DNA from: Thermoproteota archaeon
GTDB taxonomy: Archaea; Thermoproteota; Thermoprotei_A; EX4484-217-1
DNA length: 64,000 nt
NCBI GenBank assembly: GCA_029258915.1
Contig: JAPDJU010000001.1
Coordinates: 62,001-126,000 of the forward strand
Reading direction: 5' to 3'
Position 1 is the stretch's first letter; each line of letters starts with the position of its first letter. The position numbers and the translations under genes were made by a program. The notes beneath the pieces are model-generated. The model was given only the letters and a program-made list of their open reading frames with translations. It searched no databases and was not told the origin of the DNA. Of the stretch, positions 19,079-20,126 are shown in pieces.

Positions 19079-20126
19079 ATGCAACCCTTATTACCTTTTA
19101 ACATTCCTTTGGTTTACATCAAACCTAGAGAGAAAATAGCTGAAGTTTATGTTGAATGTTCTTCAGAATGCTTAAGCAAAGTATTTGGGGTAGAAACTTT
19201 ATTAGGTTTGTTTAGTGCAGTTTGGTATGTGTTGAAGCCATATGGGGTGGTGGGAGCTACGCTCTAAGCCCCGTAGGGTCTATACTCGTAGATAGGAGCC
19301 TCGTGCCGTTGGGCTCGACAGCCACCCATGAACCCATACGGGATGAACCGTGAAGGTGAGCCCTCTGCGGTGAGGTGGAAGCCCCTAGAGGAGCATCCTA
19401 ACCCAACCCAAACTACCATAAAACACCCTCTAGAGACAAACAGTACTAAGTAAGTATAAGTTAAAATTAGGTACTATATTGGAATTAACTAATGGAAAAA
19501 ACAGTGTAACATTATTTATAACAGGTTTTCAAGATAGAAGAAAAGTTGAAAAAGAAATTCTTAAATTAGACTGTGTATCGTCTGTCAAGGTTTTTTCGGA
19601 TGTTCTTATGGAAAAAGGGTTAGGTGTAGATATATTCCATTATCCTATAATGATTGCGGATTCCCATGCTTTAATATTCAATGCAAGGTATCTAATAGAA
19701 ACTTATATAGATTTAAGGGAAAGACTCGGTGATGCAGCAAACGTAATCTTTTACCATTTAGGCTTCCAATACGGATATCATGCAACTAAAGAACTTTCGG
19801 AAAAGCTTGGAGTAAAGCTCAGAGCACTATATAGTGTTAGTGAATTAGGTGAGATATTTTGCAGGATAGCCAGGGTTTATGGTTGGGGTTTCTTTGAAAT
19901 AGATTATGTAGAAGAGTCACGAGGAGTAATTAAAGTTTTCAATTCATGGACTGCTAGAGTGTATAGAGAGTTAAAAGGTTTAGCCAAAGAGCCTGTATGC
20001 CATATTGTTAGAGGCATGATAGCTGGTGCAGCTACTGCTATTACAGGCAAACGATGCAAAGCCGTGGAAATTCTTTGTACTGCCAAAGGTGATCCGTTCT
20101 ACTACTTTGAAGTTTTCGAAGAATAA
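19079..20126 (+). pseudogene. ACT-V4R domain protein gene split by a GC-rich insertion (parts 19079..19192 and 19446..20126)
   Basis: Left part ...IAEVYVECSSECLSKVFGV and right part LSKYKLKLGTILELTNGKNSVTLFITGF... join in frame; C-terminal V4R-like NVIFYHLGFQYGYHATKELSEKLG...AAATAITGKRCKAVEILCTAKGDPFYYFEV. Confidence 0.65.
19193..19445 (+). mobile_element. GC-rich insertion; probable IS200/IS605 TnpB 3'-end/omegaRNA-like remnant
   Basis: Marked GC-rich island in AT-rich context, exact interruption of an ORF, hairpin-rich 3' half (ggaagcccctagaggagcatcc); no transposase catalytic motifs, so identity is inferential. Confidence 0.45.

Follow-up and report, generated by a model that had tools for sequence, protein, structure and literature searches.

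An insertion that interrupts a V4R-domain gene in a hyperthermophilic archaeon is very probably a non-autonomous IS607-type element that bears an omegaRNA and is moved in trans; it would take its guide from the right flank and be retained through TnpB supplied in trans. It lies within the window, the 64,000-nucleotide stretch of DNA analyzed here, in a genome of 1.6 Mb assembled in 15 contigs and 99.66% complete. Copies of the same element occur in related genomes, where orthologous empty sites reveal how precisely it inserts, and its RNA is held together by a fold that is maintained through compensatory change.

The interrupted gene and the boundaries of the insertion

The insertion was noticed for its composition in an earlier, sequence-only reading, and the description of a GC-rich insert within a gene holds: GC content per 100-bp window is 0.48–0.62 across the insert, compared to about 0.21–0.46 nearly everywhere in the neighboring 5 kb, and joining the flanks at 19190/19444 yields an uninterrupted reading frame of 264 amino acids. 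The gene had been called ACT-V4R, of which the second half is confirmed by Pfam on the joined protein (PF02830, E 2.8e-9); an ACT domain was not found by Pfam. In agreement with the clean in-frame join that had been claimed, the joined protein can be aligned through the junction, gap-free at the join, to paralogues of full length that this genome encodes (L060).

The trinucleotide GTA is common to the left and right junctions, as observed before, and therefore several registers are possible. Comparison with other copies sets the element at 19191..19443, which preserves the proposed size of 253 bp and moves the proposed range of 19193..19445 two bases to the left. The junctions thus read ...TTTGGGG in the left flank, TAGAAACTTT...ACAAACAG in the element and TACTAAG in the right flank, and the covariance-model match described below stops exactly at G000:C5:81443, which corresponds to window position 19443 (Table 1).

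Two gene halves without further lesion, a perfect in-frame join and an insert in sense orientation are also compatible with an intron or IStron-like intervening sequence that is spliced out and leaves the V4R gene working, and removal at the RNA level had been offered as an alternative in the sequence-only reading. Such an origin is very improbable, since none of eight junction registers forms a bulge-helix-bulge (at most 2/4 central pairs), no group I or II intron was identified by Rfam, and scarless IS607 insertion normally gives perfect joining as well. An inserted mobile element is the preferred reading.

An orthologue of the V4R gene with an empty site was sought in the order and the class, where only distant paralogues were found (about 24–33% identity over most of the length), and no empty site of the window locus was found elsewhere in the same genome or in three relatives. 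The genome itself contains about ten V4R paralogues of 250–280 amino acids, more than the relatives searched, and the loss of one V4R gene may be tolerated.

Table 1. Features of the interrupted locus (window coordinates).
Feature	Position	Strand	Remarks
V4R gene, 5' part (MQPLLPFNIPLVYI...KVFG)	19079..19190	+	Frame open up to the junction
GGGG left flank: IS607-type target, candidate TAM (TGGGG)	19187..19190	+	Crossover GG at 19189-19190
253-bp mobile element composed of left end, omegaRNA and right end, without a protein gene	19191..19443	+	Ends of relatives and empty sites
Archaeal BRE/TATA-like box, AGAAAC followed by TTTATTAG	19192..19205	+	Within the left end, 39 nt upstream of the omegaRNA
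omegaRNA scaffold, 207 nt	19237..19443	+	Covariance model R1, positions 1-200
TnpB C-terminus relict (AIWGGGSYALSPVGSILVDRSLVPLGSTATHEPIRDEP), then stops	19237..19350	+	Frame and motif as in linked TnpBs
omegaRNA helix 3: GAGCCT (19296-19301) with GGGCTC (19311-19316)	19296..19316	+	6/6 pairs change on both sides; 98.5% of cells paired
Right-end stem: GCCCCTAGAGG (19381-19391) with CCTCTAGAGAC (19427-19437)	19381..19437	+	9/11 pairs change on both sides (seed)
Right terminus AAACAG	19438..19443	+	Family consensus AAACGG; second-last base A where IS607 ends have G
Predicted guide (TACTAAGTAAGTATAAGTTA)	19444..19463	+	Placed by the geometry of known TnpB omegaRNAs
V4R gene, 3' part	19444..20126	+	227 residues without stop; PF02830 on joined protein

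Element ends, target site and candidate helper genes

IS607 transposases use a GG dinucleotide for DNA exchange, with a preference for (G)GG as target and no resulting duplication (PMC6188088, PMC4058570), and the characterized TnpBs of this type recognize AGGAG or GAGGG as TAM (PMC11061315). Insertion at GG without target duplication is likewise found across the present family. Among 39 solo (not tnpB-linked) copies, whose left-flank registers were assigned by eye from the aligned copies, 34 have a flank ending in GG; the run extends to GGG in 31 and to GGGG in 23. Right ends read AAACGG in most copies; the window copy has GG on the left, but its right terminus is AG instead of the GG of the family, and its excision may for this reason be blocked at present. 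Its left end is also present in L005 (genome G002) and its right end in many copies. The aligned ends show the right-end stem; neither a similar palindrome at the left end nor terminal inverted repeats were apparent in them.

The sequence-only reading had favored a scarless remnant of the IS200/IS605 type, which is mobilized by a Y1 transposase. A scarless mobile-element derivative is borne out by the empty sites in relatives; the family assignment is highly unlikely. TnpB and omegaRNA are common to both families, duplication-free insertion fits both, and a palindromic stem does lie near the right end, but a search of the 99.66% complete genome for a Y1 transposase (PF01797) was negative. The only transposases found there are of the IS607 (serine recombinase) type, three serine recombinases being present in total, one with an in-frame stop. 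In addition, the left flank is GGGG rather than the AT-rich left cleavage site and TAM, TTTAA or TTTAT, of Sulfolobus IS200/IS605 elements (PMC10640517), and the closest tnpB is accompanied by an IS607 transposase.

The preferred IS607 assignment is developed further by the other copies of the insert sequence in this genome, a check suggested at the outset, which were found on contigs C11 (88%), C10 (70%) and C2. The C10 copy immediately follows a tnpB (PF07282 at C10:24401-24598), which indicates that the insert represents the region after and overlapping the tnpB end, that is, an omegaRNA, as had been guessed from the sequence. The C10 element is complete, consisting of a left end (GG followed by CAGAATAC), an IS607 transposase (NF033518, 240 bits against a cut-off of 110), a 417-residue TnpB and a right end, AACGG, with both genes intact. 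Residues D188, E276 and D362 of this TnpB are invariant in 14 relatives and occur in the contexts expected for a RuvC triad. A single-sequence search of the PDB with it gave no match, and a profile search gave weak matches to Cas12f and TnpB that are confined to the RuvC/Zn-ribbon half.

The serine transposase gene tnpA, present in this related full-length element, is absent within the 253 bp of the insert, which is therefore an IS607 derivative that is not autonomous. The C10 transposase and TnpB are candidate helpers of the window element. The left ends of the two elements differ (GG followed by CAGAATACATTTTGATG in C10; TAGAAACTTTATTAGG in the window), and their omegaRNAs are about 72% identical.

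A conserved omegaRNA scaffold retained in solo copies

The structured RNA anticipated by the sequence-only reading is supported by a 48-pair fold derived from a seed of eleven copies, which comprises hairpin 1 (inner and outer stem), helix 3, a long-range helix, a long hairpin and the right-end stem. In the seed, 81.4% of cells are paired compared to 69.3% in shuffles, and 26/48 pairs change on both sides; none of 500 shuffles equaled the structure on any measure, and shifting the partner by one base lowers pairing to about 43–45%. The window copy, itself part of the seed, matches the resulting covariance model R1 with 174.6 bits (E 1.1e-38). Across 75 distinct copies, 92.4% of cells are paired with changes on both sides in 43/48 pairs, in an alignment that was fitted to the structure and hence leans towards it.

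Homology to an RNA overlapping the tnpB 3' end, termination at the right end and a conserved fold together identify the RNA as a TnpB omegaRNA. The TnpB relict of the window copy, AIWGGGSYALSPVGSILVDRSLVPLGSTATHEPIRDEP, corresponds to ...LRGDGSNAPSPVGLYVDVSRMPFGTKATHDPTGI... in linked TnpBs. A search of Rfam for a known, unrelated RNA gave no match to the insert; a sub-threshold match to the snoRNA SNORD102 (E 0.54) was dismissed as chance, and no tRNA or tmRNA identity was found.

It is possible to regard the insertion as dead debris, namely an internally deleted IS607 copy that knocked out the gene and whose omegaRNA has no function in trans and is conserved only through youth. The AG right terminus and the stops that interrupt the TnpB codons are in keeping with this. 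In contrast, the solo copies retain pairing by compensatory change (91.1% of cells, with both sides changed in 39/48 pairs) while often no longer coding: the frame over the first 150 nt is open in 19 of 41 solo copies, compared to 21 of 23 tnpB-linked copies, and the TnpB frame is lost in 22 of the 41. Solo copies thus preserve the RNA and not the peptide. Defined common ends and a promoter-like box recur, moreover, in solo copies at many independent G-run sites, which suggests that the solo forms themselves spread. Dead debris is unlikely for these reasons, if still worth weighing, and the earlier term "remnant" is too weak for a proliferating family that has conserved both of its ends, the box and the fold of the RNA. 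An omegaRNA-bearing IS607 element moved in trans accounts for the insert better.

The BRE/TATA-like box in the left end of the window copy was not equaled in score by any of 200 left-end shuffles. In a set of 41 solo copies, similar boxes precede the omegaRNA by 24–63 nt (median 35) and reach p<0.05 in 26 cases; scoring used a rough self-made matrix, and as the copies are related, these tests are not independent. Judged by its sequence and position, the box would act as a promoter. At the opposite end, known TnpB omegaRNAs extend past the right end of their element, the guide being read from the right flank, and by analogy the first nucleotides beyond the window element would function as guide, with the G-run as putative TAM. 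No second site combining this TAM and guide (up to 3 mismatches) was found in the same genome or in three relatives, which leaves the empty site of the element itself as the sole predicted target.

A structural variation was observed in the long hairpin, which takes the form GGGAUGA-RCC-loop-GGY-GA-RCCC in the window copy (19341-19367) and in L002, L006, L007, L010 and L045. The tandem-GA internal loop in the long hairpin of several solo copies resembles a kink-turn, whereas tnpB-linked copies have a plain stem at this place; the loop is possibly a site for an L7Ae-type protein.

Distribution, proposed mechanism and known systems

The window element has further copies in its own genome and in each of the three relatives analyzed from the order (6, 5, 2 and 21 R1 copies in the four genomes), far beyond chance. 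More generally, 127 of the 231 class genomes yielded R1 matches under strict filters, with scoring limited to 10 candidates in each genome. A non-random sample of 68 distinct copies, the best matches of some genomes, divides into 43 without tnpB, 23 with tnpB and 2 with a tnpB fragment. This classification used the 1.7 kb upstream of each copy as far as sequence was present (less than 350 bp in two copies). A very diverged TnpB could escape, although TnpBs of as little as about 31% identity were detected. A pattern scan of viral contigs gave 0 matches. In another genome, all five omegaRNA copies found are solo (G177:C1, L151-L155), and three of these, located at different sites, agree in match score and left end; they appear to have spread although that genome has no closely matching tnpB linked to an omegaRNA.

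The most direct view of insertion comes from two genomes of the same genus, G089 and G090, presumably Staphylothermus hellenicus and S. marinus. For ten G089 copies whose flanks were compared, seven orthologous empty sites were identified in G090, and at six of the seven the G-run is joined directly to the right flank, with no duplication and no scar, as in the pair ATTGTTGGGG[element]GAATAATAG versus ATTGTGGGGGGAATAATAA. The empty-site reading is less clear for the seventh, tnpB-bearing copy (L150). At three of the six clear sites (L145, L148 and L149), the left G-run of the filled G089 site has a G-to-A change relative to G in the G090 empty site; this may be neutral at the given divergence, and it would remove the crossover GG or the TAM.

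Based on these data, a simple model can be proposed. A tnpA-tnpB element would have lost both genes, and the remaining ends would be acted upon in trans by an IS607 serine transposase from C10 or a similar element, leading to a scarless jump into the G-run TTTGGGG^TACTAAG of the V4R regulator gene. Transcription would start near 19228, from the left-end box, and the omegaRNA would fold into a TnpB scaffold and run past the right end, with the first ~16–20 nt of the flank serving as guide. This guide would read TACTAAGTAAGTATAAG..., which in the uninterrupted gene is preceded by TGGGG. An uninterrupted chromosome copy or recombinant, with the TAM-like TGGGG next to TACTAAG..., would then be cut by TnpB in trans, for which C10 is the candidate source, and repair from the filled copy would keep or restore the element. 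Because gene-free copies and natural empty and filled sites both exist, omegaRNA-guided transposon retention becomes testable in trans.

IS607 MITE-like repeats (PMC2678158) and IS605-derived, palindrome-associated transposable elements (PATEs; PMC3119063) are already known. In Staphylothermus marinus, where all transposable elements are of the IS607 family, a MITE-like repeat of ~260 nt occurs 14 times; these repeats resemble the window element in size, IS607 context, archaeal class and gene disruption, but inverted repeats were described for them and an RNA was not recognized (PMC2678158). An equation of the two was rejected: R1 gives only 2 matches in G090, which suggests that most of the S. 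marinus repeats belong to a different family. PATEs, from IS605-type transposons in Haloquadratum, are likewise transposase-free, derived from tnpB transposons and inserted without target duplication, and one example reaches into the TnpB C-terminal region (PMC3119063). They differ by IS605/Y1 chemistry and palindromes at both ends, whereas the window element has IS607 GG junctions and, in the aligned ends, a palindrome seen at the right end only. The RAGATH-18-derived reRNA of IS607 shares with the window omegaRNA its origin at the tnpB 3' end as well as the right-flank guide and the G-rich TAM that are predicted here (PMC11061315); the window omegaRNA, in contrast, lacks an Rfam match, is archaeal and is detached from tnpB. 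SisTnpB1 of a Sulfolobus IS200/IS605 element is also a hyperthermophilic archaeal TnpB with an RE-derived guide, yet has an AT-rich TAM and another transposase family (PMC10640517).

A description of IS607-type solo omegaRNA elements was not found in the literature searched, and the window RNA represents a hyperthermophilic, G-rich-site IS607 TnpB/omegaRNA family that is new to Rfam. A study in Geobacillus reportedly linked omegaRNA-carrying PATEs to TnpB. TnpB is the ancestor of Cas12, and omegaRNAs are normally tied to the tnpB gene; here, an omegaRNA and its element ends travel without any gene, and a sister-species pair offers natural empty and filled sites. A tentative extension, which could be correct and is slightly more doubtful than even, is that such elements are Thermoprotei-wide, protein-free mobile guide-RNA genes, each with its own promoter and scaffold and a site-derived guide, and served by IS607 transposase and TnpB made elsewhere. 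If true, they would parasitize a transposon nuclease by means of guide RNAs and exceed the genes of this nuclease in number.

Additional variants were observed alongside the main family. The genome of the window also contains a diverged second subtype of the omegaRNA, which ends in AAACGC and is represented by two solo copies (G000:C2:57194-57365 and G000:C1:228473-228647). In genome G145, a solo subfamily (L167-L169 and L172-L174) has another left terminus (CTGTTCTGTTTTTGATTAGTGG) and is likewise located after G-runs. Finally, the G002 locus that shares the left end of the window copy encodes an RtcB-like protein (L005:3-608, minus strand) with an apparent intein after GVGYDINC (INCLPPGTKVLTSLG...).
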